Part shown: piece after piece, positions 19,975 to 35,720 of the stretch
How positions within the stretch are numbered: the first letter of the stretch is position 1
Layout: each line of letters starts with the position of its first letter
The notes under the pieces: model-generated
What the model was told of the DNA's origin: nothing
Databases searched by the model: none
The model's input: only the letters and a program-made list of their open reading frames with translations
NCBI GenBank assembly: GCA_947383145.1
Contig: CANDCH010000004.1
Span: 62,001-126,000 of the forward strand
Direction of reading: 5' to 3'
Length of the DNA: 64,000 bases
DNA from: an uncultured bacterium
Lineage (GTDB): Bacteria; Bacillota; Clostridia; Oscillospirales; Oscillospiraceae
Made by a program: the position numbers and the translations under genes

Positions 19975-20042
19975 CCCTGGGCGAAACGACGGGAAGCGGC
20001 ACAGTCCGGCGCCGGTTTTCCGTGAAAAATTTATGTTTCCTC

Positions 20043-20071: not shown

Positions 20072-20116
20072 AGGGGCATAGGCGGCGCGCCCGCCTCTGG
20101 AAGGAGGCCTGAGGTC

Positions 20117-20800: not shown

Positions 20801-20838
20801 GGGCGGCACGGCCACGGCGGGGGTTCTATCAGACAGAC

Positions 20839-20876
20839 CAGGCGGAGAGGCCGCGGGCCCCTCCGCCTGCTTTTTC
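20839..20876 (+). terminator. Second rho-independent terminator
   Basis: Stem CAGGCGGAG/CTCCGCCTG followed by TTTTT. It comes about 45 bases after the first, with no gene between. Confidence 0.82.
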
Positions 20877-20918
20877 GTCCCCGAATTTGTGAATTTTCAT
20901 CGGCGGACGAATTTAACC

Positions 20919-20947
20919 TTGCAACGGCGGTTTTGCCATGCTATAAT
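20919..20947 (+). promoter_or_regulatory. Sigma-A promoter of the foldase gene
   Basis: TTGCAA 20919-20924, 17-base spacer, perfect TATAAT 20942-20947. Confidence 0.75.
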
Positions 20948-21066
20948 ATCAGGCAGCGCCCTGCGGGGGCTGTGTTTTTCAAATAAAATGCAGCCGGCAC
21001 CGCCGGGACCGGACGGGCCTCCCGGCCCGCCGCCACCACTACGAACACTGAGAGGATTGATATACC

Positions 21067-22626
21067 ATGAGCGCATCCAGAGAGAAAAAGCAGCGCCAGG
21101 GCGCCGGTCCCGACCCCAAGGCCGCAAAGGTCCAGCAGGAGCAGGCCGCCCGCAAGCGCCAGACTATCATTTATTCCGTAACCGCCGCCGTCATCGCGGT
21201 CCTGGTGATCGCCCTGCTTGTGTGGCGCTCCGGCTTCTTCCAGGGCCGGGCCTCCGCCGCCACTCTGGGCGGGCAGTCCCTGTCCACCGCCGAGCTGAGC
21301 TTTTACTACCAAGGCGTGCGCAGCTCCTACGCCAACCCCTACCTCAGCGCCAGCCTGGGCTTTGACACCACCAAGTCCGACGAGGACCAGTTCTACAACG
21401 AGGCGGAGGGCGTCACCTTCCGGGATTACTTCCTGGAGACCGCCCTGAACAACGCCCAGCAGCAGCTGGCCCTGGCCGACGAGGCCGTAAAGCTGGGCCA
21501 CAGCGAGTCCGAAATCAAGGACAACCTTGACGCCACCATCGACAGCGTCAAGGCCGAGGCCGCCTCTTACGGATACAGCTACTCCGCCTACCTGCGCAGC
21601 GTTTACGGCCCCTATATGAGCGCCGGCATCTACGAGTCCCTCACCGCCCGCTTCCTGATGGCCCGGCTGGCGGCCAGCGACAAGGCCGATGAGCTGTACG
21701 ACAGCTTCACCCAGGCCGATCTGGAGAATTATTACAAGGACAACGCCGACGGCCTGGACACCATCGAGTACTCCTTCCTCTACTTCGCCGTTCCCAGCGT
21801 GAACAGCAAGGACGAGGACGGCGCCGACATCCCCGAGGACGAGCTCCAGAAGCTGAAGGACGAGGCCCAGGCCAACGCCAAGCAGAGCGCCGAGGACGCC
21901 ATGGCCGAGCTCAAGGAGGGCGAGGAGGTGGCTCACCTGAAGGAGCACTTCAATCCCACCAGCTCCGGCGACCACATCAAGACCGTGGGCACCGGCTCCA
22001 TCAACTCCGCTTACAGCAAGCAGCTTCTGGCCCTGAACAAGGAGGACTGCCAGCTGGTGGAGACAGACAGCGGCTATTATGTCGTCGCCTTCCATGACCG
22101 CTACCGCGACGAGGAGCCCACCCGGGATGTGCGCCACATCGCCATTCTGGCCGAAACCACCACCGACGAGGACGGCCACGCCGTTGCCCCCACCGACGAG
22201 GCCTGGGCCGCCGCCAAGGAGAAGATCGACGCCATCCAGGCCGAGTACGAGGGCGGTGCCAAGACCGAGGACGCCTTCGCCGCCCTGGCCAACGAGAAGT
22301 CCGACGACGGCGACGGCACCACCGGCGGCCTGTACACCCGCATCGCCAGAAGCAATACCTCCCTGGTCCCCGAGTTCCTGGGCTGGATCTATGAGGACGG
22401 CCGCACGGCGGGCGACGTGGGCGTTGTCCAGCACAGCGCGGCCGACTCCGACAGCAACAAATATTGGGGCTACCACCTGATGTACTATGTGGGCGAGAAC
22501 GAGCCCGTCTGGATGGGTTCCGTCCGCAACACCCTGACCACCGAGGGCCAGCAGGACTGGATCGACCAGCTGGCCGCCGCCTATCCCACCGCCCTGGCCG
22601 GCGGCGCGGACTATCTCGGCAAGTAA
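21067..22626 (+). CDS. Membrane-anchored SurA/PrsA-like peptidyl-prolyl isomerase
   Basis: 519-residue protein with a charged cytoplasmic head, one TM helix at about residues 34-53, and a large extracellular part. The N-terminal SurA-like helical domain begins with GGQSLSTAELSFYY. A parvulin-type (PpiC) region lies in the second half, around RDVRHIAILAETTTDEDG and TGGLYTRIA, with a closing helix. It would fold secreted proteins at the outer membrane face. There is no lipobox, so it is TM-anchored rather than a lipoprotein like PrsA. The parvulin core is divergent and catalysis is uncertain. It has its own promoter and terminator. Confidence 0.82.
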   Translation: MSASREKKQRQGAGPDPKAAKVQQEQAARKRQTIIYSVTAAVIAVLVIALLVWRSGFFQGRASAATLGGQSLSTAELSFYYQGVRSSYANPYLSASLGFDTTKSDEDQFYNEAEGVTFRDYFLETALNNAQQQLALADEAVKLGHSESEIKDNLDATIDSVKAEAASYGYSYSAYLRSVYGPYMSAGIYESLTARFLMARLAASDKADELYDSFTQADLENYYKDNADGLDTIEYSFLYFAVPSVNSKDEDGADIPEDELQKLKDEAQANAKQSAEDAMAELKEGEEVAHLKEHFNPTSSGDHIKTVGTGSINSAYSKQLLALNKEDCQLVETDSGYYVVAFHDRYRDEEPTRDVRHIAILAETTTDEDGHAVAPTDEAWAAAKEKIDAIQAEYEGGAKTEDAFAALANEKSDDGDGTTGGLYTRIARSNTSLVPEFLGWIYEDGRTAGDVGVVQHSAADSDSNKYWGYHLMYYVGENEPVWMGSVRNTLTTEGQQDWIDQLAAAYPTALAGGADYLGK

Positions 22627-22636
22627 CTGCGCACGT

Positions 22637-22672
22637 CAAAAAGGGGCCGGACTATGTGTCCGGCCCCTTTTC
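22637..22672 (+). terminator. Rho-independent terminator after the foldase gene
   Basis: Stem AAAAGGGGCCGGAC/GTCCGGCCCCTTTT with loop TATGT. Confidence 0.9.
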
Positions 22673-22695
22673 CAAACCCAAGGAGGCATTTCAAT

Positions 22696-23433
22696 ATGGA
22701 GGATCAATTCATCCGCACCCGGATGCTGCTGGGTTCCCCCGCCATGGTCCGGCTGCGCTCCGCCCACGTAGCGGTGTTCGGCCTGGGGGGCGTGGGGAGC
22801 TGGTGCGCCGAGGCCCTGTGCCGCTCCGGCGTGGGAGAGCTCACCCTGGTGGATCAGGACACGGTGTCGGTGAGCAACCTGAACCGGCAGGCCGCCGCCC
22901 TGCGCTCCACCGTGGGCATGGAAAAAGCCCGGGCCGCCGCCCTGCGCCTTCGGGATATCGCCCCGGACTGCGTGCTCCACCCCCTTTGCGCCCGGTACGA
23001 GGCGGGGTCGCGGGAACAGTTTTTCACCGCGAAATACGACTATATTGTGGACGCCATCGACCTGGTGAGCTGCAAGCTGGATTTGATCGAGACAGCCCAC
23101 GCCCGGGGCGTCCCCATCATCTCCGCCCTGGGCACCGGCAACAAGCGGGACGCCCAGCTGCTGCGCATCGCCGACATATCGCAGACCGAGGGGTGCCCCC
23201 TGGCCCGGGTGGTGCGCAGGGAGCTGCGCCGGCGGGGCATCTCCCGCCATCAGGTGGTGTTCTCCCCCGAGCCTGCCCGGAGCGCCGAGGCAGGGGACGA
23301 GGCCCCGCCCCCCGGCCGCCGTTCCGTCCCCGCCAGCGCCATGTGGGTCCCGGCGGCGGCGGGGCTGCTGCTGGCCCAGGCGGTCATTCTGGCGCTTGCG
23401 GACGGGGCCGGACCCGCTCCCACGCCCGTCTGA
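22696..23433 (+). CDS. tcdA: tRNA threonylcarbamoyladenosine dehydratase (TcdA/CsdL), ThiF superfamily
   Basis: E1-like enzyme that uses ATP to dehydrate t6A37 of tRNA to cyclic t6A. 245 residues. It opens with DQFIRTRMLLG, then the nucleotide-binding GLGGVGSWCAEALCRSG and VDQDTVSVSNLNRQ with the ATP-contacting Asn-Arg-Gln. DAIDLVSCKLDLI and GTGNKRDAQLLRIADI are TcdA-specific blocks. The C-terminus carries a hydrophobic helix (AAAGLLLAQAVILALA). Start: AGGAGG at 22681-22686 precedes ATG 22696. Its last 50 bases overlap the 3' end of the convergent PAP2 gene. Confidence 0.92.
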   Translation: MEDQFIRTRMLLGSPAMVRLRSAHVAVFGLGGVGSWCAEALCRSGVGELTLVDQDTVSVSNLNRQAAALRSTVGMEKARAAALRLRDIAPDCVLHPLCARYEAGSREQFFTAKYDYIVDAIDLVSCKLDLIETAHARGVPIISALGTGNKRDAQLLRIADISQTEGCPLARVVRRELRRRGISRHQVVFSPEPARSAEAGDEAPPPGRRSVPASAMWVPAAAGLLLAQAVILALADGAGPAPTPV

Positions 23434-23950
23434 CCGCCCACGCCCCCAGCAAGCCGCACAGTGAGCCGATTGCCGCCCCTGCCAGCACGTCGCTTGGAAA
23501 ATGGACCCCTACATACAGCCGGGACAGGCCCATGAGCACGGCGGCACACACCGCCGCAATTCTGATCCACCGCCTTGGCGCAGCGGCCCACACCGCCAGG
23601 GCAAAGGCAAAGGCGGCGCTGGTGTGGCCCGACGGGAAGGAATTGGGGTCGTGCTCCGGCACCAGGCTGGCAAAATTTTCGATGACCAGCCAGGGCCTGG
23701 GCCGCGACACCAGAGGCTTGATGGTGACGTTCACCGCCACAAGCCCGATAAGCATGGCGCAAAGCGCCGAGGCCCCCGCCCTCCGGGTCCGCTTGAAGCA
23801 CAGAAGCAGAAGCGCCAGCCCGATAAACAGAAGGCCGCCGTCGCCCAACCGGGTGTAGAACTCCATGAGCGGGTCCAGAAAGCCGCCCCGCAGATGTTCC
23901 GCGATCCACACCAGCGCCCGCTGGTCCAGCTGCTGAATCACTTCCGGCAT
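23384..23950 (-). CDS. PAP2 family phosphatase (integral membrane)
   Basis: 188-residue multi-helix membrane phosphatase of the PAP2 family, acting on phosphatidate-type or undecaprenyl-diphosphate lipids. All three catalytic motifs are present: KPLVSRPRPW (motif 1), PSGHTSAAF with the His acid (motif 2), and SRLYVGVHFPSD with the nucleophile His (motif 3). It starts at ATG 23950 after AAAGGGGG. Between motifs it has about five hydrophobic segments. The last 50 bases overlap tcdA tail to tail. An undecaprenyl pyrophosphatase role is plausible but not provable here. Confidence 0.9.
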   Translation of the reverse strand: MPEVIQQLDQRALVWIAEHLRGGFLDPLMEFYTRLGDGGLLFIGLALLLLCFKRTRRAGASALCAMLIGLVAVNVTIKPLVSRPRPWLVIENFASLVPEHDPNSFPSGHTSAAFAFALAVWAAAPRRWIRIAAVCAAVLMGLSRLYVGVHFPSDVLAGAAIGSLCGLLGAWAVRRAWERVRPRPQAPE

Positions 23951-24029
23951 GGAAATGCCCCCTTTCTCCCTTGACCTGGGAGGAATTTGCCTGTATACTG
24001 GCATACGGGCCGTCTGGCCCACGGATACC

Positions 24030-24058
24030 ATTTTAGCCCATCCCGCCGCCGTTGGCAA
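24030..24058 (-). promoter_or_regulatory. Sigma-A promoter of the PAP2 gene
   Basis: Minus strand TTGCCA 24058-24053, 17-base spacer, TAAAAT 24035-24030. Confidence 0.6.
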
Positions 24059-24078
24059 GCCCCTTCCCCGGCGGCGCC

Positions 24079-24107
24079 TTGCAAAGCTCCAGGGAACGTA
24101 CTATAAT
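24079..24107 (+). promoter_or_regulatory. Sigma-A promoter of the glycosyltransferase-csaB operon
   Basis: TTGCAA 24079-24084, 17-base spacer, perfect TATAAT 24102-24107. Confidence 0.75.
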
Positions 24108-24154
24108 ATGGGACGATCCCCCACCATATGTCACTGTGAAAGGCGGCCAACCCC

Positions 24155-25210
24155 ATGAAACACATCGCGTTCTTTCAGACCGACCTCCGGGTGGGCGGGG
24201 TGCAGAAATCTCTGGTGAACATCCTCAACGACATCGACCTCAGCCGCTGCTGCGTTGATGTCTACCTGTTCGACCGGGAGTGCTTCTTCGACCTGCCCGC
24301 CCACGAGAACCTCCAAATCAAGTATCTGCCCGCCGCCCCCGGTTTTTTCCGGGTGGTTTACTTCGGTCTGGCCCGCCGCCTGCTGGGGGACGTCACCGGC
24401 GGCAGGGAGTACGACGTGGCGGTGGATTTCAACAGCTATCAAAACGAGTGCGCCGCGGGCGTGGTCAACGCCAACGCCAAAAAGCGGGTCATGTGGATTC
24501 ACAACGACGTGGAGATCAAGCGAAAAAACGAACCCAAATACCGCATTCTGTGGCATTTCTTCCGGGGAAAGCTGCGGCACTACGACGAGTTCGCGGCCGT
24601 CTCCCCCGGCATTGTGGACGGCTTCCGCCGGGTGTCCGGCATCTGGGACAAGCCCATCACCCCCATCCCCAACCACATCGACACCGGCGAGATCTTCCGC
24701 AAGGCCAAGCTTTCGGTGGACTTCTCCGTAGATCCGGCCAAGCTCAACCTGTGCTCCGTGGGACGCCTCTGCCACCAGAAGGGCTATGACCTGCTGATGG
24801 GCTATCTGGACCAGGTGAAGAAAAACCGCCGGGATTTCCACTTCTATCTCATCGGCGACGGGCCTGACCGGGCCGCTCTGGAGGGACAGATCAGGGAGCT
24901 GGGCCTGGGCGAGTATGTCACCCTGCTGGGCAACCAGACCAACCCCTTCTGCTACATGGACCAGATGGACGGCTTTGTGCTCACCTCCCGGTACGAGGGG
25001 CAGGGCATGGTCATCTGGGAGGCCAAGGCCCTGGGCCTGCCCCTTTATATCTCCAAAAATCTGGAGGCCTACAACCCCGGCGTTACCGGGTGCGAGGACA
25101 TCGTCCAGGCGCTGACGGCGGCGAAAAAGCCGGAACACAAGGTCTATGACGACCTGGCGGACTACAACGGCGAGATCACCCGGCTGGCGGACCGCCTGCT
25201 GGGGCTGTGA
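24155..25210 (+). CDS. Glycosyltransferase, family 4 type
   Basis: 351-residue GT-B glycosyltransferase. The N-terminal acceptor domain starts FQTDLRVGGVQKSLVNIL. The C-terminal donor domain has SVGRLCHQKGYDLLMGYL, a DGPDRAALEGQIRELGL block, and the EX7E-like signature SRYEGQGMVIWEAKALGLPLYIS, which binds the nucleotide sugar. There are no TM helices, so it is cytoplasmic or peripheral. It is the first gene of a three-gene operon with csaB and another glycosyltransferase and probably builds a wall-linked polymer. Donor and acceptor sugars unknown. Confidence 0.9.
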   Translation: MKHIAFFQTDLRVGGVQKSLVNILNDIDLSRCCVDVYLFDRECFFDLPAHENLQIKYLPAAPGFFRVVYFGLARRLLGDVTGGREYDVAVDFNSYQNECAAGVVNANAKKRVMWIHNDVEIKRKNEPKYRILWHFFRGKLRHYDEFAAVSPGIVDGFRRVSGIWDKPITPIPNHIDTGEIFRKAKLSVDFSVDPAKLNLCSVGRLCHQKGYDLLMGYLDQVKKNRRDFHFYLIGDGPDRAALEGQIRELGLGEYVTLLGNQTNPFCYMDQMDGFVLTSRYEGQGMVIWEAKALGLPLYISKNLEAYNPGVTGCEDIVQALTAAKKPEHKVYDDLADYNGEITRLADRLLGL

Positions 25211-25240
25211 CGGATGCCGCCGATCAGAGGAGCGACAGCT

Positions 25241-26371
25241 ATGGGCCAACAGGCTTCAAAATCGAATCAGCGGCGGGGAATCCTCATCTGCGGCTCCTAT
25301 GGGCTGGGCAACACCGGGGACGAGGCCATCCTGAAGGCCATCCTCCGGGAGGTGCGCGCCGCCGCCGGGGACGAGGAGCTCACCGTCCTGTCCCGGAACC
25401 CGGAGGAGACCGCCGTCCGCCACGGGGTCAAGGCGCTGCACATGTTCGACATACCCGGCATACTCGGCGCCATGGACCGGGTGCGGCTGTATATCAACGG
25501 CGGCGGCAGCCTCATCCAGGACGCCACCTCCCGGCGCAGCCTGCTGTACTACCTGTTCACCCTCCGCGCCGCCCACAGCCGGGGCTGCAGGGTGCTGATG
25601 TACGGCTGCGGCATCGGGCCGGTGGAGCGCCTGGGCGACGCCGCCCTGGTCCGCCGGGTGCTCAACCGCTGCGTGGACGCCATCACCCTCCGGGAGGACG
25701 CCAGTCTGGCCGAGCTGAAGCGGTTCGGGGTGGACAAGCCGGAGATCGTGCTGGCGGCGGACCCTGTGCTCTCCCTCCAGCCCGCCGCCCCCGGGGAGAC
25801 CGACGCCCTGATGGCCCAGCTGGGGCTGGACCCCGGCGGCGCCTATTTGGGCGTCTGCCTGCGCACCTGGCGGGGCTTTGAGGCCAAGGTGCCCGTCATC
25901 GCGGAGGCGGTGCGCTACGCCAGGGACGCCTACGGCCTGACCCCGGTCTTCCTGTCCGTCAACCACATCACCGACGGGGACGCCGCCGACTTGGTGGTGT
26001 CCCATCTGAAGGGCGGGCCAGCCTTCGTGGTGCGGGAGCCCCTCAGCTCCGAGCTGATGCTGGGCATCACCTCCCGGATGCAGGCGGTGATCTCCATGCG
26101 GCTCCATGGACTGGTGTTCGCCGCCGGACAGGGCGTCCCCCTGGTGGGCATCATCTACGATCCAAAGGTCAGCGGCTTTTTGGCCTACATGGGCCAGGAG
26201 CTGTGCCAGGACCTGGACAAGCTCACGGGAGACAGCCTCCGGGATATGCTGGACCGGGCCCTGGCCCTCCGGGCGGACCGAGACTCCCTGCGCGCCGCCG
26301 TAGACGCCCTGCGCCGCCTGGAGGAAAACAACTCCACCGTTCTGCGCCGCCTGCTGGAGGTATCCCCATGA
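25241..26371 (+). CDS. csaB: Polysaccharide pyruvyl transferase CsaB
   Basis: Transfers a pyruvyl ketal from phosphoenolpyruvate onto a cell-wall polymer. In Bacilli and Clostridia this modification anchors SLH-domain surface proteins. 376 residues. The N-terminal loop ICGSYGLGNTGDEAIL, the central INGGGSLIQDATSRRSL and GCGIGPVERL, and the late SMRLHGLVFAAGQGVPLVGI block are characteristic of the family. Start: AGAGGAG lies eight bases before ATG 25241; an upstream in-frame start has no site. The stop overlaps the next start (ATGA at 26368), so translation is coupled. Confidence 0.93.
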   Translation: MGQQASKSNQRRGILICGSYGLGNTGDEAILKAILREVRAAAGDEELTVLSRNPEETAVRHGVKALHMFDIPGILGAMDRVRLYINGGGSLIQDATSRRSLLYYLFTLRAAHSRGCRVLMYGCGIGPVERLGDAALVRRVLNRCVDAITLREDASLAELKRFGVDKPEIVLAADPVLSLQPAAPGETDALMAQLGLDPGGAYLGVCLRTWRGFEAKVPVIAEAVRYARDAYGLTPVFLSVNHITDGDAADLVVSHLKGGPAFVVREPLSSELMLGITSRMQAVISMRLHGLVFAAGQGVPLVGIIYDPKVSGFLAYMGQELCQDLDKLTGDSLRDMLDRALALRADRDSLRAAVDALRRLEENNSTVLRRLLEVSP

Positions 26372-27444
26372 AGCAGATCGTCTGTCTGGCCCACGCCCCC
26401 TGGCGGGCCCGCACCGACCGCACCCAACAGCTTCTGGCCCGGCTGGGAGACGCCCAGATTCTGTTTTTCGAGCCCGCCCCCAGAAAGGGCGTCCCCATGC
26501 CCGAGCAGGGCCGCCGGGTCCGGGCCCACATCACGGCGTACACCCTGCCCGTTCCACTGCCCGGCCCCCAGGAGGGCTCCGTGCTCCACCACCGAAGGCT
26601 GGACCGGGCGGCGGACTATGTCCAACAGGTGATGGAAAAGCACCGCTTCCGCGAGCCGGTGCTGTGGTGCACCACCCCTGCCCACGCCCAGTTTCTGGAC
26701 AAGCTGGCCTACCGGGGGGTGGTATATGACTGCCACCGCTTTTGGGACGACAGCTTCCTGGACTGGGAGAGCGACCTCACCCGCCACGCCGAGGTGGTGT
26801 TCGCCGCCTCCTTCGGCCTCATCAAGCGCCTCTCCCCTTGTAGCGACAATATCGCCCTGCTGCCCAACGGAGTGAACCCGGTGCTGTTCCAACAGAAGGT
26901 GCGGACCGTCCCCCCCGCCCTGGCCGGCCTGCCCGGGCGCCGGCTGCTGGGCCGGGTGGGCGGCGTCACCGGCCAGGTGGACCTGGAACCCCTGCTCTAT
27001 CTGGCGCGGCACCGGCCGGAGTGGACCATCGCCCTCATAGGCCGGGTAACCAAACCGGCGGCGGAGCAGCTCCGAGGGCTGGAAAACGTGGTGCTCACCG
27101 GGCCGGTGAACCCCCTGGACCTGCCCGACTTCCTGTACCGCTGCGACCTGCTGTTCGACCTGCCCCGCTTTGACCGCCCCGGCGACGTGGTGCCCACCCG
27201 GGTGTACGAATACCTGGCCACAGGCAAACCCATCGTCACTGTGGTGGACCCCAGCGTGCCCGACGCCATCCCCGAGCTGGTGTCCACCGCCTACGACGGC
27301 CCCGGCTTCCTGCGCCGGTGCAAATCGGCGCTGGCGGAGGACCCCTCCCTGCCCCGCCGGCGGCGGGAGATGGCCCGGCAGTGCTCCTGGACCGGCCGCG
27401 CCGCCCAGGTCTCCAATATTTTGGAGGCGACCGGGCTGTTTTGA
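26368..27444 (+). CDS. Glycosyltransferase (GT-B) for a cell-surface polymer
   Basis: 358-residue protein with a GT-B layout: CLAHAPWRARTDRTQQLL in the first domain, YDCHRFWDDSF near residue 120, ALLPNGVNP at the domain junction, then a donor-side region ALIGRVTKPAAEQL and VPTRVYEYLATGKPIVTV, which is typical of GT4-like enzymes. Translationally coupled to csaB by a 4-base overlap. It probably extends or decorates the same polymer. After the stop there is a gap of about 270 bases that holds the purine-operon promoter and leader; I see no obvious terminator for this operon. Confidence 0.87.
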   Translation: MKQIVCLAHAPWRARTDRTQQLLARLGDAQILFFEPAPRKGVPMPEQGRRVRAHITAYTLPVPLPGPQEGSVLHHRRLDRAADYVQQVMEKHRFREPVLWCTTPAHAQFLDKLAYRGVVYDCHRFWDDSFLDWESDLTRHAEVVFAASFGLIKRLSPCSDNIALLPNGVNPVLFQQKVRTVPPALAGLPGRRLLGRVGGVTGQVDLEPLLYLARHRPEWTIALIGRVTKPAAEQLRGLENVVLTGPVNPLDLPDFLYRCDLLFDLPRFDRPGDVVPTRVYEYLATGKPIVTVVDPSVPDAIPELVSTAYDGPGFLRRCKSALAEDPSLPRRRREMARQCSWTGRAAQVSNILEATGLF

Positions 27445-27513
27445 GGTTTTCGCCATGGACGGCCCTCCCCGGCCCCAGAGAATCGTACAAGCCTACAAAT
27501 TTGGAAAAACCCC

Positions 27514-27542
27514 TTGCTTTTTGGCTCTTTTTTAGCTAAAAT
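27514..27542 (+). promoter_or_regulatory. Sigma-A promoter of the purine operon
   Basis: TTGCTT 27514-27519, 17-base spacer, TAAAAT 27537-27542. Confidence 0.68.
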
Positions 27543-27715
27543 GAAGGTGACTTTTTGGAAATGAGGTGGCTGTCGTGGTGCGTTTCCGCCCTGCCCTTCC
27601 GGGCTTCCGTCTCCACGGCCTCATTGCGTCCAAATCCGCCGCCTGAAGCGCTCAATACAGGTCCGCCCGCACCTGCGCGGCGGCCTGTTTTATTTTCAAT
27701 TAAGGAGGGCTTGAC
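27543..27715 (+). promoter_or_regulatory. Structured purE leader with internal terminator
   Basis: About 170 bases between promoter and purE. Complementary arms around TGGAAATGAGG (27555-27565) and CCTCATTGCGTCCA (27619-27632) could fold an outer stem over an inner GTGG...CCAC region, and a terminator hairpin stands before the purE ribosome site. The layout suits transcription attenuation of purine synthesis. It does not match the purine, PRPP or ZTP riboswitch consensus as I know them. Confidence 0.5.
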
Positions 27716-27719
27716 ATGA
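27561..27719 (+). CDS. Leader ORF overlapping the purE start (52 codons, doubtful)
   Basis: ATG 27561 opens a frame starting MRWLSWCVSALPF and ending KEGLT, whose TGA overlaps the purE ATG by four bases (ATGA). A weak AGGTGA stands upstream. It runs through the whole leader and through the terminator hairpin, so it could be a leader peptide that couples translation to attenuation. The proline/serine-rich sequence has no recognisable domain, and the same bases look structured as RNA, so it may be fortuitous. Confidence 0.3.
   Translation: MRWLSWCVSALPFRASVSTASLRPNPPPEALNTGPPAPARRPVLFSIKEGLT
27658..27696 (+). terminator. Rho-independent terminator inside the purE leader
   Basis: Arms CAGG-CCGCC and GGCGG-CCTG (one bulged T) followed by TTTTATTTT, ending about 20 bases before purE. 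It lies upstream of an operon, so it is a candidate attenuator. Confidence 0.65.
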
Positions 27720-28210
27720 AAAAAGTCGCCGTTATCATGGGCTCCGACTCCGACTGGCCAGTGGTCAAGGGGGCCTGCGCCCAGCTTGACGAGTTCGGCA
27801 TCCCCTATGAGGCCCACATACTCAGCGCCCACCGCACCCCCGCCGCCGCCGCGCAGTTCGCTAAAAACGCGCGGAAAAACGGCTTCGGCGTGCTCATCTG
27901 CGCGGCGGGCATGGCCGCCCATCTGGCGGGAACCTTCGCCGGAAACTCCACCCTGCCCGTCGTCGGCATCCCCATGAAGGGGGGCGCCATAGACGGGCTG
28001 GACGCCCTGCTGGCCACCGTCCAGATGCCCAGCGGCATTCCCGTGGCAACCGTGGCCATCAACGGGGCCAAAAACGCTGCGGTGCTGGCGGCGCAGATTT
28101 TAGCCGTGTCCGACGAGGAACTGGCCGCCAAGCTGGACGGGGCGCGGGAGAAGATGGCCGCACAGATCGCGGAGAAGGAGGCAAAGCTCCAGGCGGAGCT
28201 GGAGGCGTGA
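27716..28210 (+). CDS. purE: 5-(carboxyamino)imidazole ribonucleotide mutase / AIR carboxylase
   Basis: Produces 4-carboxy-AIR in de novo IMP synthesis. 164 residues with the family blocks GSDSDWPVV, the active-site SAHRTP, GMAAHLAG, and DALLATVQMPSGIPVATVAI. These look like the PurE of the N5-CAIR-mutase class, but no purK is in the window, so direct use of AIR plus CO2 (class II) is not excluded. AAGGAGG lies nine bases before ATG 27716. First gene of the operon; its stop overlaps the next start (GTGA). Confidence 0.95.
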   Translation: MKKVAVIMGSDSDWPVVKGACAQLDEFGIPYEAHILSAHRTPAAAAQFAKNARKNGFGVLICAAGMAAHLAGTFAGNSTLPVVGIPMKGGAIDGLDALLATVQMPSGIPVATVAINGAKNAAVLAAQILAVSDEELAAKLDGAREKMAAQIAEKEAKLQAELEA

Positions 28211-28728
28211 ACTGGCAGGAGGCTCAGCGTTCTCGCCGAGGGACCAGACTGTACGGGGACATAGCGCGGGCCTACCTCAAAAGCAAAAAGGTCTACCGAT
28301 ACCGCATGAAGAAAATCAGCGATATGGACGACAGCCAGGTGTCCCAAGCCTGCCACCACTGGTATGAGGAGAACAATCTGGTGGAGGATTATCAGGCGTT
28401 CCAGGCGCTTTATTTCCAGCGGCACCGGGGGGAATACCTGGCGGTCTACCCCATCAACAATCAGGAGGAGGGGTTCCCAATGTTCCAGGAATCGTCCAGG
28501 GAGGAGCTGACCCAGCTGGTCAGGGCCATCCAGACCGTCCGCGACCCAGAGACCGGGCAAGAGCTCACCGAGGCGGAACACACCGCGCTGGTGGTGAAAT
28601 TCGCGAAAGGCATCCCCCATCCCGGCGGAAGCGACCTGATCTATTTTCCCCAGCTGGTGGAGGGCTTTCCCAGGGACCGGGAGCCCACCGTGGAGGAGAT
28701 CGTGAATATGGCCCTCCGGGAGATTTGA
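28207..28728 (+). CDS. Protein with C-terminal colicin/pyocin-immunity-like domain
   Basis: 173 residues starting at GTG 28207, overlapping the purE stop. The last 80 or so residues, from REELTQLVRAIQ, resemble the four-helix colicin E/pyocin DNase immunity family: an acidic helix, then HPGGSDLIYFP, which closely parallels the HPDGTDLIYYP block of Im7/Im9, then a PTVEEIVNMALREI helix. The first 90 residues (basic, with KSKKVYRYRMKK and CHHWYEE) match nothing I know. An internal ATG at 28480 with AGGAGG before it could make the immunity-like part alone. No nuclease toxin is nearby. Its place in a purine operon is unexplained. Confidence 0.65.
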   Translation: MNWQEAQRSRRGTRLYGDIARAYLKSKKVYRYRMKKISDMDDSQVSQACHHWYEENNLVEDYQAFQALYFQRHRGEYLAVYPINNQEEGFPMFQESSREELTQLVRAIQTVRDPETGQELTEAEHTALVVKFAKGIPHPGGSDLIYFPQLVEGFPRDREPTVEEIVNMALREI

Positions 28729-28767
28729 CCGTTTACAATCACAATTTTATTTTGGGAGGAATTACTC

Positions 28768-29454
28768 ATGGAAAACAAACTCGTTTACACCGGCAAAACC
28801 AAGAACGTTTACGCCCTGGACAACGGCAATTATCTGCTCAAGTTCAAGGACGACTGCACCGGCAAGGACGGCGTGTTCGACCCCGGCGAGAACTCCGTGG
28901 GCCTGACCATCGAGGGCGTGGGCGACGTGAACCTGCGCATGTCCATCTACTTCTTTGAGAAAATCAACGCCGCCGGCATCCGCACCCACTTCGTCTCCGC
29001 CAACCTGGAGGATACCACCATGGAGGTGCTGCCCGCCAAGGTGTTCGGCAAGGGGCTGGAGGTCATCTGCCGCCACAAGGCGGTGGGTTCCTTCTTTAAG
29101 CGCTACGGCGAGTACATCAAGGAGGGCGCCGACCTGCCCGCCTACGTGGAAACCACCTTCAAAAACGACGAGAAGGGCGACCCCCTGGTGACCAAGGACG
29201 CCCTGGTGGCCCTGGGCGTGATGACCGAGGCCCAGTACGACGACATCAAGGACATGACCCAGAAGATCACCAAAATCGTGGCCGACGACCTGAAGGAAAA
29301 GGGTCTGGTCCTCTACGACATCAAATTTGAGTACGGCTATGACGCCGGCGGCAGGGTGATGCTCATCGACGAGATCGCCTCCGGCAACATGCGGGTGTAC
29401 AAGGACGGGAAGTATATCGACCCCATGACCCTGTCCAAGCTGTTCTTCGCCTGA
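28768..29454 (+). CDS. purC: SAICAR synthase
   Basis: Condenses CAIR with aspartate using ATP in purine synthesis. 228 residues, with YTGKTKNVY at the N-terminus (the ATP-site loop), [38 protein letters not shown] (metal/ATP site) and a short C-terminus. The stop is two bases before a 48-codon micropeptide gene. GGGAGG precedes ATG 28768. The motif [15 protein letters not shown] is where the usual Asp-Pro substrate loop lies, so it looks like an ordinary family member of the slightly shorter type. Confidence 0.95.
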
Positions 29455-29456
29455 GT

Positions 29457-29603
29457 ATGGATATCGGCGTTATCGGCGGGCGGGACGGCCCCACCGCCAT
29501 CCTCGTGGGCGGCGATCCCGTCGGATTCATCCTCATGCTGCTCCTGGCCGCGGCACTGATTGGAGGAGCGGTTTGGCTCTTCCGGCGCAAACGCAACAAA
29601 TAA
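29457..29603 (+). CDS. 48-residue single-TM micropeptide with GGxDGPTAI motif
   Basis: ATG 29457 to TAA 29603, beginning two bases after the purC stop. It encodes MDIGVIGGRDGPTAILV, a short turn, one hydrophobic helix (VGFILMLLLAAALIGGAVWLF) and a basic RRKRNK tail. The GVIGGxDGPTAI box is the signature otherwise seen near the C-terminus of the beta subunits of Na+-translocating decarboxylases (OadB/GcdB). Small free-standing proteins with this motif occur in Firmicutes. No decarboxylase subunits are nearby. Function unknown. The ribosome site would lie inside the purC end, which suggests coupling, and AAGGAGG for purF directly follows its stop. Confidence 0.7.
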   Translation: MDIGVIGGRDGPTAILVGGDPVGFILMLLLAAALIGGAVWLFRRKRNK

Positions 29604-29615
29604 GGAGGCTCTGTA

Positions 29616-31034
29616 ATGGGCGGATTCTTCGGCGCGATCTCCCAGCGCGACGTGACCCTTGACATTTTCTTCGGCGTGGACTATCACTCCCATCTGGGCA
29701 CCCGCCGGGGCGGCATGATTATCTACGACGGGCAGGACGGCTTCCAGCGGCAGATTCACTCCATTGAGAACACCCCCTTCCGCACCAAGTTCGAGAAGGA
29801 CCTGGAGAAATTCCACGGCTGCTCCGGCATCGGCTGCATCAGCGATACCGACCCCCAGCCCCTGCTGGTGCGCTCTCATCTGGGGCTGTACGCCATCTCC
29901 ACCGTGGGCATCATTAACAACGCCGACCAGCTGGTGGAGGAGTATTTCGACGGCTGCCACCAGTTCATGGCCATGAGCTCCGGCAAGATCAACTCCACCG
30001 AGCTCACCGCCGCCCTCATCAACCGGAAAAACTCCCTGGTGGAGGGCATTCAATACGCCCAGCGGGTCATCGACGGCTCGTCCACCATCCTGATTCTCAC
30101 CCCGGAGGGCATCGTGGCCGCCCGGGACCGGCTGGGCCGCCTGCCGGTGCTCGTCGGCAGAAACGCGGAGGGCTGCTGCGTGTCCTTCGAGTCCTTTGCC
30201 TATCAGAAGCTGGGCTATGAGAGCGCCTATGAGCTGGGCCCCGGCGAGATTGTCCGGGTCACCCGGTCAGGCTGGGAGACCCTGGCCCCCGCCGGAGACA
30301 AAATGCGCATCTGCGCCTTTTTGTGGACCTACTACGGCTACCCCAACTCCAACTACGAGGGGCAGAATGTGGAGGTCATGCGGTGCCGCAACGGCGAGAT
30401 CATGGCCCGCGCCGAAAAGGCCAAGGGCGCCCTGCCCGACGTGGACTGGGTGGCCGGGGTGCCCGACTCCGGCGTGCCCCACGCCATCGGCTACGCCAAC
30501 GCCAGCGGCAGGCCCTTCGCCCGGCCCTTTGTGAAGTACACCCCCACCTGGCCCCGCTCCTTCATGCCCGCCAATCAGGAGGTGCGCAACCAGGTGGCCA
30601 AAATGAAGCAGATTCCCGTACCCGAGCTGATTCAGGGCAAAAAGCTCCTGTTTGTGGACGACTCCATCGTTCGGGGCACCCAGCTGCGGGAGACGGTGGA
30701 TTTTCTGTACGGCGCGGGTGCCAAGGAGGTCCATATGCGCTCCGCCTGCCCCCCCATCATGTACGGCTGCAAGTTTCTCAACTTCTCCCGGAGCAACTCC
30801 GATATGGAGCTGCTGGCCCGTAAAACGGTTCAGGAGCTGGAGGGAAGCGAGGGGGACCAGCACATTGAGGAATATGCCGACTCCTCCACCCAGCGGGGGC
30901 AGTGCCTGCTGAAGTCCATCTGTGAAAAGCTGGGCTTCGACTCCCTGGGTTACCAGTCGCTGGACGGCCTTCTGGAGGCCATCGGCATCGACAGGGATAA
31001 AATCTGCACCTACTGCTGGACCGGAAAAGAATAA
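29616..31034 (+). CDS. purF: Amidophosphoribosyltransferase-like protein lacking the N-terminal catalytic cysteine
   Basis: First step of purine synthesis (PRPP to phosphoribosylamine), 472 residues. The phosphoribosyltransferase half is normal: the PRPP loop LLFVDDSIVRGTQLRE and VPDSGVPHAIGYA are intact. The glutaminase half is altered. Mature PurF begins with the nucleophile Cys (CGxFG), but here the protein starts MGGFFGAIS with Gly, and SHLGTRRGGM replaces the usual QHRGQEGAG. The Asn/Asp oxyanion and ammonia-site region (IINNADQL, NSTELT) also differs. It therefore probably cannot hydrolyse glutamine by the usual mechanism, and either uses free ammonia or a separate glutaminase. RBS AAGGAGG, ATG 29616. 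Confidence 0.9.
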   Translation: MGGFFGAISQRDVTLDIFFGVDYHSHLGTRRGGMIIYDGQDGFQRQIHSIENTPFRTKFEKDLEKFHGCSGIGCISDTDPQPLLVRSHLGLYAISTVGIINNADQLVEEYFDGCHQFMAMSSGKINSTELTAALINRKNSLVEGIQYAQRVIDGSSTILILTPEGIVAARDRLGRLPVLVGRNAEGCCVSFESFAYQKLGYESAYELGPGEIVRVTRSGWETLAPAGDKMRICAFLWTYYGYPNSNYEGQNVEVMRCRNGEIMARAEKAKGALPDVDWVAGVPDSGVPHAIGYANASGRPFARPFVKYTPTWPRSFMPANQEVRNQVAKMKQIPVPELIQGKKLLFVDDSIVRGTQLRETVDFLYGAGAKEVHMRSACPPIMYGCKFLNFSRSNSDMELLARKTVQELEGSEGDQHIEEYADSSTQRGQCLLKSICEKLGFDSLGYQSLDGLLEAIGIDRDKICTYCWTGKE

Positions 31035-31056
31035 CTTTGAAAAGGAGGCGGCGGTC

Positions 31057-31323
31057 ATGGTCGAGTCAAGATGCGGCATCCTGTGCGGCCAATGCGGGTA
31101 CCGGGAGCAAATGGGCTGTACCGGCTGCGTCAACATCCAAAAACCCTTTTGGGGGGACAGCTGCCCCGTAAAATCCTGTACTGAGGACAAAGCCCACGCC
31201 CACTGCGGGCAGTGCGAGGCGTTCCCCTGCGAGCTGCTGAACCAGTTCGCCTATGACGAAAAGCAGGGCGACGGCGGCAAGCGCATTGAACAGTGCAGGC
31301 TCTGGAAAGGACAGGAATCATGA
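31057..31323 (+). CDS. DUF3795-type cysteine-rich small protein
   Basis: 88 residues with eleven cysteines in pairs (CGILCGQCGY, CTGCVNI, CPVKSC, CGQCEAFPC), which suggests Zn or Fe-S binding. This matches the DUF3795 pattern common in anaerobes; its function is unknown. Start: AAAGGAGG at 31040-31047 precedes ATG 31057. Its stop overlaps the purM start (ATGA), so it is translated as part of the purine operon. A metal-binding or redox chaperone role for a neighbour is possible but purely inferred. Confidence 0.82.
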   Translation: MVESRCGILCGQCGYREQMGCTGCVNIQKPFWGDSCPVKSCTEDKAHAHCGQCEAFPCELLNQFAYDEKQGDGGKRIEQCRLWKGQES

Positions 31324-32363
31324 ACAACTCCCATTCTGAATCTTACGCCGCCGCCGGGGTGGACGTCACCGCCGGCTATGAGGCGGTGCGGCGCATCAAG
31401 CCCATGGTGGAGTCCACCTACATCCCCGGGGTGATGGGCTCCCTGGGGGGCTTCGGTGGCATGTTCGCCCCCGACCTGGCCGGCATGAAAAGGCCGGTGC
31501 TGGTGTCCGGCACCGACGGCGTGGGCACCAAGCTGAAGATCGCCTTCCTGATGGACAAACACGACACCGTGGGCATCGACTGCGTGGCCATGTGCGTCAA
31601 CGACATCATCTGCGGCGGCGCCGTCCCTCTGTTTTTCCTGGATTACATCGCATGCGGCAAGAACAACCCAGACCGCATCGCCCAGATTGTTGCGGGCATC
31701 ACCGAGGGATGCCGTCAGGCCCAGTGCGCCCTGGTGGGGGGCGAGACCGCCGAAATGCCCGGATTCTATCCGGCGGAGGAGTACGATCTGGCGGGCTTCT
31801 CCGTGGGCATGGTGGACGAGGAGGACATCATCGACGGCAAAAAGCTGGCCCAGGGCGACGCTTTGATCGGTCTGGCCTCCTCCGGCGTCCACTCCAACGG
31901 CTTCTCCCTGGTGCGCAAGGTGCTCCACATTGAGCACGCCGACCTGCGCACCCCCCTGGACGAGCTGGGGGGCAGAAGCCTGGGCGAGACCCTGCTCGCC
32001 CCCACCAGGATCTATGTCAAGGCGGTCAAGGCCCTGCTGGCGGCGGGGGTGGACATTCACGCCGTCAGCCACATCACCGGCGGCGGCTTTTACGAGAACG
32101 TGCCCCGGATGATGACGGCCGGCCTCACCGCCAGGATTGAGCTGAGCGCCTTCCCCTGCCCGCCCATTTTCAAGCTCATCCAGCGGCTGGGCGGCATCCC
32201 GGAGCGGGATATGTACAACACCTTCAATATGGGCGCCGGCATGGTGCTGGCCGTTCCCGACGGACAGGCGGACCAGGCGCTGAGCCTCCTCAAGGAGAAC
32301 GGCGAGGAGGCGTACCGGATCGGCCAGGTGGTCCCCGGCGGCGGGGGCGTGGAGCTGGTATGA
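31320..32363 (+). CDS. purM: Phosphoribosylformylglycinamidine cyclo-ligase (AIR synthetase)
   Basis: Closes the imidazole ring using ATP. 347 residues. Near the N-terminus are the family blocks SYAAAGVDVTAGYEAV and SGTDGVGTKLKIAF, then the conserved VNDIICGGAVPLFFLDYIA, CALVGGETAEMPGFY, LASSGVHSNGFSLVR, and SHITGGGFYENVPRM. ATG 31320 overlaps the DUF3795 stop by four bases, and its own stop overlaps the purN start by four bases (ATGA), making a chain of translational coupling. Confidence 0.97.
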   Translation: MNNSHSESYAAAGVDVTAGYEAVRRIKPMVESTYIPGVMGSLGGFGGMFAPDLAGMKRPVLVSGTDGVGTKLKIAFLMDKHDTVGIDCVAMCVNDIICGGAVPLFFLDYIACGKNNPDRIAQIVAGITEGCRQAQCALVGGETAEMPGFYPAEEYDLAGFSVGMVDEEDIIDGKKLAQGDALIGLASSGVHSNGFSLVRKVLHIEHADLRTPLDELGGRSLGETLLAPTRIYVKAVKALLAAGVDIHAVSHITGGGFYENVPRMMTAGLTARIELSAFPCPPIFKLIQRLGGIPERDMYNTFNMGAGMVLAVPDGQADQALSLLKENGEEAYRIGQVVPGGGGVELV

Positions 32364-33022
32364 GCGTAAAGCGCATCGCCGTGCTGGTGTCCGGCGGGGG
32401 CACCAATTTGCAAGCCCTCATCGACGCCCAGCGCCGGGGAGAGATTGTCAACGGAGAGATTGCCGCCGTCGTCGCCTCCAACCCCGGCGCCTATGCCCTG
32501 GAGCGGGCCGCGCGGGCGGGCATCCCCGGCTATGTGGTGGCCCGGCGCGGCTATCCCAGCAATCAGGCCATGACCATCGCCCTGGTGGACAAGCTGAAAA
32601 GCCTGGACATCGACCTAGTGGTGCTGGCCGGGTTCATGGTCATTCTGACGGAGGAGATGGTGCGGGCCTACCCCAACGCCATTCTCAACGTCCATCCCGC
32701 CCTCATCCCCTCCTTCTGCGGGGAGGGCTATTACGGCCTCCACGTCCACGAAAAGGCGCTGGAGTATGGAGTGAAGGTGTCCGGTGCCACCGTCCATTTC
32801 GTCAGCGAGGAGTGCGACGGCGGACCCATCGTGCTCCAAAAGGCGGTGCCCGTGGAGGAGGGCGACACCCCGGAGGCCCTCCAGCGCCGGATTATGGAGC
32901 AGGCGGAGTGGGTCATCCTGCCCCGGGCGGTGTCCCTGTTCTGTCAGGGGCGTTTGCGGGTGGAGGGCCGCACGGTCCGCATTTTGAAGCCTGTGAATCT
33001 ATCAAAGGAGTGTCTGCAATGA
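32360..33022 (+). CDS. purN: Phosphoribosylglycinamide formyltransferase
   Basis: Transfers a formyl group from 10-formyl-THF to GAR. 220 residues with AVLVSGGGTNLQALID at the N-terminus, LAGFMVILTEEMV, the catalytic Asn-His in NVHPALIPSFCG, GYYGLHVHEKAL, and the Asp in VSEECDGGPIVLQ. The length is normal. It overlaps purM by four bases and its stop overlaps the start of the IMP cyclohydrolase gene (ATGA at 33019), continuing the coupled block. Confidence 0.97.
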   Translation: MSVKRIAVLVSGGGTNLQALIDAQRRGEIVNGEIAAVVASNPGAYALERAARAGIPGYVVARRGYPSNQAMTIALVDKLKSLDIDLVVLAGFMVILTEEMVRAYPNAILNVHPALIPSFCGEGYYGLHVHEKALEYGVKVSGATVHFVSEECDGGPIVLQKAVPVEEGDTPEALQRRIMEQAEWVILPRAVSLFCQGRLRVEGRTVRILKPVNLSKECLQ

Positions 33023-33723
33023 CCGACATCATCGAGTATTTACAGAACAACCCCTATCCCGGCCGGGGCATTCTGCTGGGCCGCTCTGCGGACAACAAAT
33101 GCGCCGTCATCGCCTACTTCATCATGGGCCGCAGCGAGAACAGCCGCAACCGGGTGTTTGAGGAGACGGAGGACGGCATCCGCACCCGCGCCTTCGACGA
33201 GTCCAAAATGACCGACCCCTCCCTCATCATCTACCACCCGGTGCGGCGGATGGAAAACGGCCTGACCATCGTCACCAACGGCGACCAGACCGACACCATC
33301 CGGGACAACATCCTGGCGGGCCACTGCTACCGCCACGCCCTGAACACCCGCACCTTTGAGCCTGACGGGCCCAACTATACCCCCCGCATCTCCGGGGTTG
33401 TGAAGCCCGACGGGGCCTATAACCTGTCCATCCTCAAGAGCCTGGACGGCGACCCCTCCTGCGCCTGCCGGTACTTCTATGAGTACGACGCTCCCAAGGC
33501 GGGAACGGGCCATTTCATCCACACCTACGAGAGAGACGGCAATCCCCTGCCCTCCTTCCAGGGAGAACCCCGGATGACGGCCATCGCCGCCCCCGACGCG
33601 GAGACGCTGGCCAACGACCTGTGGCTGGCGCTGAACGAGGACAACAAGGTGTCCCTGTTCGTGCGGTACATCGACCTGGAGACCGGGGACGACGAAACCT
33701 CCATCATCAACAAGCACTGGTAA
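33019..33723 (+). CDS. IMP cyclohydrolase, archaeal PurO-like family
   Basis: Closes FAICAR to IMP, the last step of purine synthesis. 234 residues without similarity to the MGS-like cyclohydrolase domain of bacterial PurH. The blocks PYPGRGILLGRSADNKCAVIAYFIMGRSENSRNR, the YHPVRR loop, GDQTDTI, and FEPDGPNYTPRISG fit the PurO/IMP-cyclohydrolase-like family (PF07826 type). Together with the stand-alone AICAR transformylase downstream it replaces bifunctional PurH. ATG 33019 overlaps the purN stop, after AAAGGAG. Confidence 0.88.
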   Translation: MTDIIEYLQNNPYPGRGILLGRSADNKCAVIAYFIMGRSENSRNRVFEETEDGIRTRAFDESKMTDPSLIIYHPVRRMENGLTIVTNGDQTDTIRDNILAGHCYRHALNTRTFEPDGPNYTPRISGVVKPDGAYNLSILKSLDGDPSCACRYFYEYDAPKAGTGHFIHTYERDGNPLPSFQGEPRMTAIAAPDAETLANDLWLALNEDNKVSLFVRYIDLETGDDETSIINKHW

Positions 33724-33758
33724 GTCAGGGGGCGAAGCTGCGAAAGGAGGCACAGTGC

Positions 33759-34349
33759 ATGAAAGCGGACAAGTACATTGAGAGGACAGGTCCGACAGGG
33801 AATGGATACTCCAGGATTCACGACAGAAAAACCGGCAGAGATGGGTATATAGATAACTATGGCAATGTCGTCCTCGACCCGGAGCCGAGGGATGACCCGG
33901 AACCGAAGCAGAGCAGCTTTGAGGATGACCCAGAATTTCAAGCGCGTCTCCAGAGCACAAGGCAGCCTGGCGGGGATCACTATGCTAAGGGCGGCCCCTC
34001 CGCCGGCGCCCCTCAGAAGGACCCCGGGCTGGGGGTCCTCCCCATTCTCGCAGGTATTTTCGCGGGCATCGCCATGGCGGACCACGACGCCAAAGCCAGG
34101 CGGCAGCGGCAATCCGCCTACTCCCCTCCTCCCGCCCCCGCCGCAAAAGAGGAGGATAAAAGCGGCGCTCTAGACACAATTGTGGGCCTCGCGCTCCTCC
34201 TCCTGTTGGGGCGGCTTGCCCTTTTGGCGCTCATGACACTTTTCGGTGGCTGCACCATACCCCGGTTTCTCTTGAACCTGGCAGGTACGCTGGCGGGCGC
34301 CGTTGCGCTGGTTTTCCTCGCGGACAAGCTCAAAAAGCTGTTCCAATAA
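33759..34349 (+). CDS. Hypothetical membrane protein in the purine operon
   Basis: 196 residues, start ATG 33759 after AAAGGAGG. The N-terminal 85 residues are hydrophilic and repeat GR/GY-type turns (NGYSRIHDRKTGRDGYIDNYGNVV), a segment seen in short Firmicutes hypotheticals. Then come a hydrophobic stretch (LGVLPILAGIFAGIAMA), a charged proline-rich linker, and two or three TM segments (LDTIVGLALLLLLGRLALLAL, NLAGTLAGAVALVFLA). The first 200 bases are clearly lower in GC than the flanking genes, which may indicate acquisition. No functional prediction. Confidence 0.75.
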   Translation: MKADKYIERTGPTGNGYSRIHDRKTGRDGYIDNYGNVVLDPEPRDDPEPKQSSFEDDPEFQARLQSTRQPGGDHYAKGGPSAGAPQKDPGLGVLPILAGIFAGIAMADHDAKARRQRQSAYSPPPAPAAKEEDKSGALDTIVGLALLLLLGRLALLALMTLFGGCTIPRFLLNLAGTLAGAVALVFLADKLKKLFQ

Positions 34350-34422
34350 GCGGGCAGTCCCCACAGATTCATCCGGGTACGTTTCGATTACAAAACAGAA
34401 TCAGGAAGGGAAGAAAAGAACC

Positions 34423-35598
34423 ATGACCGAACTGGAACTGAAATACGGCTGCAACCCCAACCAGAAGCCCGCCCGCATTTTCATGAAGGGAGACCGGGAG
34501 CTGCCCCTGGAGGTGCTCAACGGGAAGCCGGGGTACATCAATTTCATGGACGCGCTGAACTCCTGGCAGCTGGTAAAGGCGCTGAAAGCCGCCACCGGCC
34601 TGCCCGCCGCCGCCTCCTTCAAGCATGTCTCCCCCGCCGGGGCCGCCCTGGGCCTGCCCCTGTCTGAGGTAGAGCGTCAGATCTACTTTGCCCCCGAGGG
34701 GGAGCTGTCCCCCATCGCCTGCGCCTATATCCGGGCCCGGGGCGCCGACCGGCTGTGCTCCTACGGCGACTGGGCGGCCCTGTCCGACACCTGCGACGCC
34801 GACACCGCCCGCTATCTGGCCCTGGAGGTGTCCGACGGCGTCATCGCCCCGGATTACACCGCCGAGGCCCTGGAGATCCTGAAGGCCAAGCGCAAGGGCG
34901 GCTATAACGTGGTGAAAATCGACCCGGATTATACCCCCTCCCCTGTGGAACGGCGGAGCATTTTCGGCATCGTGTTTGAGCAGGGCTACAATGACCTGAC
35001 CATCGGCGAAAACATGCTGGAGAACATCGTCACCGCCAACAAAGACCTGCCCCAGGCCGCCAAGCACGACATGCTTCTCGCCCTCATCACTCTGAAATAC
35101 ACCCAGTCCAATTCCGTGTGCTACGTGAAGGGCGGACAGACCCTCGGCGTGGGCGCGGGCCAGCAGAGCCGCATCCACTGCACCCGGCTGGCGGGGAACA
35201 AGGCGGACACCTGGTGGCTGCGGCAGCACCCCAAGGTCCTGGGCCTCCAGTTTGTGGACGGCATCCGCCGCCCCGACCGGGACAACGCCATCGACATCTA
35301 CATCTCCGACGAGCACGACGACGTGCTGGCCGAGGGTGTGTGGCAGAATACCTTCAAGGCGCGCCCCGAGGCCCTCACCCAGGCGGAGAAAAAGGAGTGG
35401 ATCGCCAAGCAGTCCGGGGTCACCGTGGGCTCCGACGCCTTCTTCCCCTTCGGGGATAACGTGGAACGGGCCTTTAAGTCCGGCGTGAAGTACATCGCCC
35501 AGCCCGGCGGCTCCATCCGGGACGACCACGTGATTTCCACCGCCGACAAGCACGACATGGTGATGGCCTTCACCGGCATCCGCCTGTTCCATCACTAA
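34423..35598 (+). CDS. purH: Stand-alone AICAR transformylase (PurH C-terminal half)
   Basis: Formylates AICAR with 10-formyl-THF. 391 residues correspond to the transformylase domain only; the IMP-cyclohydrolase domain of normal 510-residue PurH is missing. Key blocks are LKYGCNPNQKPA at the N-terminus, the catalytic Lys-His of ASFKHVSPAGAALG, VYVKGGQTLGVGAGQQSRI (folate/active-site loop), DAFFPFGDNVERA, and the terminal QPGGSIRDDHVISTADKHDMVM. The missing activity is supplied by the PurO-like gene 700 bases upstream. Start ATG 34423 after AGGAAGG. Confidence 0.95.
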   Translation: MTELELKYGCNPNQKPARIFMKGDRELPLEVLNGKPGYINFMDALNSWQLVKALKAATGLPAAASFKHVSPAGAALGLPLSEVERQIYFAPEGELSPIACAYIRARGADRLCSYGDWAALSDTCDADTARYLALEVSDGVIAPDYTAEALEILKAKRKGGYNVVKIDPDYTPSPVERRSIFGIVFEQGYNDLTIGENMLENIVTANKDLPQAAKHDMLLALITLKYTQSNSVCYVKGGQTLGVGAGQQSRIHCTRLAGNKADTWWLRQHPKVLGLQFVDGIRRPDRDNAIDIYISDEHDDVLAEGVWQNTFKARPEALTQAEKKEWIAKQSGVTVGSDAFFPFGDNVERAFKSGVKYIAQPGGSIRDDHVISTADKHDMVMAFTGIRLFHH

Positions 35599-35612
35599 GG
35601 TCAAGGACCTGC

Positions 35613-35695
35613 TTCTTTTTCTTGAAAGAAAAAGAACTTTAAACTGCTTACGCATGAAGTATTTATTTCCCCGCCCAGAGGGTGGGGAAATAAAT
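35613..35695. repeat. Two intra-operon hairpins before purD
   Basis: A near-perfect palindrome TTCTTTTTCTT/AAGAAAAAGAA at 35613-35636 is followed by a 12-bp stem ATTTATTTCCCC/GGGGAAATAAAT at 35661-35695 with a GCCC..GGGT inner extension. Neither looks like a classical terminator. They may process or stabilise the mRNA between the AICAR transformylase gene and purD. Confidence 0.6.
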
Positions 35696-35720
35696 GATTA
35701 ATATCCAATGGGAGGGTTTT

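Follow-up and report, generated by a model that had tools for sequence, protein, structure and literature searches.

Colicin/pyocin DNase immunity (Im) proteins have the fold of a distorted four-helix bundle. The PF01320 proteins Im2, Im7, Im8, Im9 and ImS2 share with the protein described here their size (82 aa), acidity, a helix II glutamate, the motif SDLIY[Y/F]P and a profile match. As set out in excerpts of PMC4548480, Im helix III binds the exosites of colicin-type DNases through the hot spot [S/T]DLIYYP, specificity is largely set by helix II, and Glu30 in helix II of Im2 has a role in DNase binding. Nuclease bacteriocins are reported exclusively in gamma-proteobacteria, and Bacillus HNH nucleases are linked to SUKH, not Im, proteins (passages of PMC5536347). 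Searches of open-access literature found nothing pairing a bacteriocin immunity protein with a purine operon, nothing joining Im9 and Im7 with Clostridia and nothing joining a nuclease bacteriocin and an Im protein with Firmicutes; the open-access papers found to name PF01320 do not appear to concern Gram-positives. PMC3482391, PMC9990079 and PMC7884437 offered no specific information about Im.

Several plasmids encode proteins that can be compared with ours. In Enterobacter cancerogenus, an immunity gene (WP_153682328.1, locus L051) comes immediately after the gene for a bacteriocin whose Col-Pyo_DNase domain matches PF21431 at 5.4e-52. A Niallia taxi plasmid (locus L052, 1093-4213) carries consecutive genes of the LXG, Tox-HNH-HHH, SUKH-2 and PF01320 families. 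Its Im-like gene likewise comes from Bacillota, matches PF01320 (26.2 bits) and is small and stand-alone, but it reads SDLIFW at the hot spot and sits in a toxin-immunity locus. Two different immunity families stand behind one toxin in this plasmid, and the genes are absent from the gene table of the collection. This single case suggests that contact-delivered toxins may be the Gram-positive counterpart. An actinomycete plasmid (Embleya sp., locus L053, 4010-4237) has an 'e9imm peptide' gene that scores 17.0 bits against PF01320, under the cut-off, and lies about 1.1 kb ahead of a Tox-REase-2/WXG100-like ORF.

Immunity genes without a toxin are also described. In gut Bacteroidales, the orphan immunity genes of rAID systems protect against foreign attack (an excerpt of PMC12247911). 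Orphan bacteriocin immunity genes on E. coli plasmids are argued to be protective against foreign attack, with the DNase type represented by only one of those counted (an excerpt of PMC12546727). The gene reported here likewise appears to be an immunity gene without a toxin; unlike those systems, it is a single gene in a purE-purC junction, neither part of a recombinase-associated array nor carried by a plasmid.

The window (the whole 64-kb stretch of DNA analysed) comes from a draft genome that is 85.4% complete and consists of 58 contigs; the genomes of the relatives compared here are drafts as well. The features under study are as follows.

27716-28210, + strand: purE, AIR carboxylase family (PF00731, AIRC, 1.2e-60); its stop TGA shares bases with the GTG that opens the following frame.
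28207-28479, + strand: gene N, 91 codons that share the frame of the Im gene, the window copy having no stop of its own; no Pfam match at E<=1, 66% identical homologue in the congener G002.
28463-28471, + strand: Shine-Dalgarno AGGAGGAGG preceding ATG 28480; duplex energy -12.6 kcal/mol.
28480-28728, + strand: predicted Im gene, encoding an 82-aa acidic protein of the colicin/pyocin DNase immunity family (homologue alignment, PF01320 in relatives, PDB profile match).
28570-28572, + strand: codon of the putative helix II Glu, aligned to Im9 position 30.
28630-28650, + strand: SDLIYFP, the predicted Im helix III hot spot (colicin hot spot as given in an excerpt of PMC4548480).
28768-29454, + strand: purC, 228-aa type (PF01259, SAICAR_synt, 1.7e-41).

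The preliminary description reported an ORF with the motif HPGGSDLIYFP inside a purine operon and no nuclease toxin beside it, and both points hold. The ORF (28207-28728, + strand, 173 aa) starts with a GTG that shares a GTGA overlap with the purE stop, carries the motif at residues 138-148 and ends 39 nt ahead of purC; the genes upstream of the Im gene are purE and N. A scan of the + strand from 27300 to 29000 found no terminator-like site, and 24000-38000 has no Rfam riboswitch match at the gathering score. A promoter-like site at 28725-28753, 5' of purC, matches 9 of 12 positions (two such sites found, 0.7 expected), so purC may also own a promoter. From the arrangement, we infer that the Im gene is co-transcribed with the pur operon. 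Further along the pur cluster, an IMP_cyclohyd-family ORF (32818-33723; PF07826, 6.1e-62) is followed by an ORF at 34303-35598 that by eye resembles AICAR transformylase.

N and Im are best taken as separate small genes that lie in one frame within the 173-aa ORF; each occurs alone in relatives. The congener G002 has a stand-alone 77-codon N between purE and purC without Im, and G017 and G015 have Im without N. In G033, the N copy is broken by a frameshift, or by an error of the draft assembly. In the window, N continues in frame into Im with no stop between. The internal start at 28480, already named in the preliminary description, is preceded by a very strong Shine-Dalgarno: its duplex energy with the anti-Shine-Dalgarno is the same as that of purE, and of 2000 places drawn at random from 20000-40000, 0.2% reach -12.6 kcal/mol. 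An 82-aa protein is therefore expected from 28480. The earlier wording, that the immunity-like part is fused to or follows another domain, thus leans toward two genes sharing a frame, with a 173-aa N-Im read-through product possible.

The supposed N-terminal domain, a separate gene in G002, is also less basic than had been described, with a pI of 8.7 (weakly basic) in the window and 6.9 in G002. A profile of N (A2) matched its own genome among 300 family genomes, plus one weak match (locus L050, E 0.0037) that was rejected, as it lies within a 488-aa lipoprotein-like ORF. N matched no plasmid, phage or viral contig, its best PDB match has an E-value of 0.52, and it has no strong PHROG match. 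It shows no likeness to Im (hhalign probability 0.3%).

Assignment of the Im gene to its family runs mainly through its relatives. The curated PF01320 cut-off is 21.2 bits; the window copy scores 17.9 bits as the whole ORF and 19.4 bits from 28480, both below it. The window protein matches Im9 by phmmer with an E-value of 0.0016 and has no match in NCBIfam; at E 0.01 it matches neither plasmids nor phages. Matches were found in 5 of the 199 related genomes searched, the own genome counted, and all five are congeneric. Stand-alone genes of 82 codons in G017 and G015 align without gaps from the window ATG at 28480 to the stop, with 71% and 65% identity, and exceed the PF01320 cut-off (29.0 bits, 1.1e-6, and 25.2 bits, 1.8e-5, respectively). 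A profile built from the three Im proteins (A1) matches ImS2, the pyocin S2 immunity protein (1.2e-7), and Im9 of colicin E9 (2.5e-6) in the PDB.

With E-values allowed up to 1, the G017 protein also matches 263 plasmid records, among them genes annotated 'bacteriocin immunity protein'. The best is the E. cancerogenus immunity gene (39.7% over 89% of the length, E 4e-5; 40% over 73 aligned columns), whose product has a pI of 4.9 next to 4.7 for the window Im. It differs in being paired with a bacteriocin and in its PF01320 score of 123.9 bits, compared with 19-29 here. The motif [ST]DLIY[YF]P occurs once in all six frames of the 64 kb. A profile test of family membership is thus positive through G017, G015 and A1 and negative for the window copy alone (19.4 versus 21.2 bits). 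The resemblance to Im proteins is accepted because the relatives clear the cut-off where the window copy is borderline, and it is well supported that the last 82 residues represent a colicin/pyocin DNase immunity protein, as judged by sequence. The three Im copies are probably orthologous, given their identity and position.

The similarity appears to go beyond the fold pattern and to include the residues predicted to contact a toxin. The hot spot reads SDLIYYP in G017 and G015 and SDLIYFP in the window, a single conservative change of the second Tyr to Phe. The Glu that aligns with Im9 position 30, E122 in the ORF, is kept in all three copies. Helix II reads EHT in the three copies and in the E. 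cancerogenus protein. Compared with the PF01320 proteins named above, the window Im is longer ahead of helix II and beyond helix III, comes from Clostridia and lies in a housekeeping operon with no cognate toxin gene beside it. PF01320 genes are expected to have the cognate DNase directly upstream; the window Im has purE and N there, so the gene counts as an orphan of the family and not as one half of a toxin-immunity pair.

The reading that we favor, with a probability of roughly two in three (0.68), is that the Im gene is an orphan immunity gene that guards against colicin/pyocin-type DNase toxins of competitors. The 82-aa acidic protein would be made mainly from ATG 28480 and could adopt the Im fold. 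It would attach to the exosite of an HNH DNase domain of the colicin/pyocin type and thereby inactivate that domain; SDLIYFP in helix III would supply the energy hot spot, and helix II would confer specificity. The gene itself would be cargo of the purE-purC junction, expressed with the pur operon.

A colicin-like toxin had been proposed as a partner to look for in the genome, and no colicin-type DNase exceeds the cut-off in the 42 genomes of the genus. PF12639 (Colicin-DNase) gave no match above its cut-off in the 42, and 0 of 14 control genomes were positive, so that this negative may reflect limited sensitivity; PF21431 (Col-Pyo_DNase) likewise gave none in the 42, with E. coli positive among the controls. 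Since the window genome is 85.4% complete, a toxin could be missing from it. Two matches below threshold were rejected. At the PF12639 match in G023 (locus L054), a WHH nuclease domain shares its ORF with a SUKH-1 domain, and the PF21431 match in G033 (locus L066) is an HNH ORF that by eye resembles a group II intron protein. The G023 ORF (1303-2175 of its locus) is in itself a fusion of a nuclease with the SUKH-1 immunity domain in a congener. The DNase domain of the E. cancerogenus bacteriocin was found in 815 plasmid records (the 10 organism names listed, out of 18, are all Proteobacteria) and in no phage record.

Because no matching toxin was found, the Im protein most likely shields against the toxin of another organism. 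The T7SS/LXG-type toxins of other Bacillota would be a guess at the carrier. Points against the orphan immunity reading are that the searches found no Gram-positive toxin that Im could neutralize, that nuclease bacteriocins are reported from gamma-proteobacteria alone, that the DNase type is rare among the orphan genes counted on E. coli plasmids, that the window copy lies under the Pfam cut-off and has Phe in place of the second Tyr, that purC may have its own promoter and that selection on Im is weaker than on purE.

Comparison of relatives, which the preliminary description had suggested, shows that the Im gene is sporadic. purE was matched in 41 of the 42 genus genomes, and 40 junctions (30 + 10) were read, leaving aside G005 (purE not found) and G020 (purE at a contig end). 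Im is present in three of them (the window genome G000, G015 and G017), N in three (G000, G002 and, broken, G033), and neither in 34, where the gaps measure 14-176 nt. The remaining junction (G016) carries other cargo, a P-loop ATPase-like gene, so the purE-purC junction hosts varied insertions. This cargo (locus L038, 775-1347, minus strand) is AT-rich and has weak AAA_18 and CPT matches. A recurring stretch 3' of purE, GAAAGAAAAAG..AAAAAGAACTTT..CGTTACC (by eye; loci L020, L025, L032, L037 and L042), looks like a dispersed repeat.

Beyond the genus, profile A1 found only its own genome among 391 genomes of the class, two of them from this genus. PF01320 exceeded its cut-off in 1 of the 391 class genomes and 1 of 398 phylum genomes; among 14 control genomes, it was positive in E. 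coli only. Both matches were judged, from their loci, to be due to chance. The class match (locus L048) overlies the start of an ORF that resembles SufS by eye and has a stop in the stretch, and the phylum match (locus L055, 21.2 bits) lies inside an 829-aa ORF that resembles PcrA/UvrD helicase by eye. Further A1 matches in G033 and G017 (E ~0.03; loci L016 and L017) were rejected as antisense to a transposon protein-like ORF, and a weak Im match (E 0.58; locus L026) was ignored as it lies on the opposite strand, outside the junction.

Both small genes are under constraint, Im less so than purE. The three pairs of Im copies have dN/dS of 0.30, 0.25 and 0.13 (dN and dS 0.19/0.64, 0.24/0.97 and 0.11/0.86), consistent with purifying selection. 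N and its G002 homologue differ by a dN of 0.11 and a dS of 1.16 over 58 codons. For purE against four relatives, dN is 0.04-0.05 and dS 0.42-0.47, a dN/dS of about 0.1.

These values bear on the strongest rival, that the Im gene is a drifting remnant, a toxin-less and functionless gene in decay whose in-frame union with N is accidental. The rarity of Im in the junctions, the broken N of G033 (unless this is an assembly error), the stop-free union of N and Im, a dN/dS above that of purE and the lowest PF01320 score of the three copies for the window would all suit such a remnant. However, none of the three Im copies has a stop within its 82 codons, each keeps the toxin-contact residues, dN/dS is 0.13-0.30 and a strong Shine-Dalgarno precedes 28480. 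We consider decay unlikely.

It is improbable that the protein inhibits an HNH nuclease of phages or selfish elements and so serves in defence other than bacterial-toxin immunity. The window Im (5.3e-5) and the G017 protein (5.5e-6) both match phrog_37357, a family of phage proteins with no assigned function, so Im-like proteins travel on phages; the family is perhaps a phage-borne Im family. A congener also has an HNH ORF, the group II intron protein-like ORF of G033. Yet tblastn found no match in 50,697 phage records or in viral contigs, no PADLOC model matched, and Im helix III is described as binding the exosites of colicin-type DNases (PMC4548480, in excerpt).

Still less probable is a domesticated Im fold that regulates purine synthesis, for example by modulating PurE or PurC, which the preliminary description had offered beside orphan immunity. 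The three Im copies do all lie between purE and purC, Im starts 16 nt (G017) and 3 nt (G015) past the purE stop, and the window N overlaps purE. Against this, 34 of the 40 junctions have neither small gene, which makes Im and N rare cargo, not a partner of the purine enzymes. Both purC types, which are only ~35% identical, are found beside Im as well as beside N, and the conserved Im residues are those of DNase binding. Orphan immunity fits the three junctions of 40 and the retained contact residues better, and the regulatory reading is left without support. The two purC types (228 and 236 aa) occupy the same site after purE in different members of the genus (the window, and loci L003, L004 and L006); here a core purine gene has been replaced in situ.

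That N and Im form a toxin-antitoxin pair with N as the toxin is very unlikely, for although they are adjacent, in one frame and of opposite pI (8.7 and 4.7), G002 has N without Im, G015 and G017 have Im without N, and N has no Pfam match, no PDB match at E<0.5 and no strong PHROG match.

The orphan immunity reading can be extended, tentatively, to an undescribed toxin with a canonical colicin/pyocin-type HNH DNase that attacks this genus and against which the acquired Im gene defends. The junction would then exchange small defence genes, and N could be a second immunity protein, unrelated to Im and able to form a two-domain polyimmunity protein with it. If this were true, the Im gene would have been acquired horizontally, and a type of DNase domain so far gamma-proteobacterial would reach Gram-positives. 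Detailed measurements exist for the interface between Im proteins and DNases, so binding assays offer a direct way to look for the target. A canonical DNase immunity protein retained by Clostridia would imply an undescribed route of a matching DNase into Gram-positive bacteria, or other targets of the Im fold.
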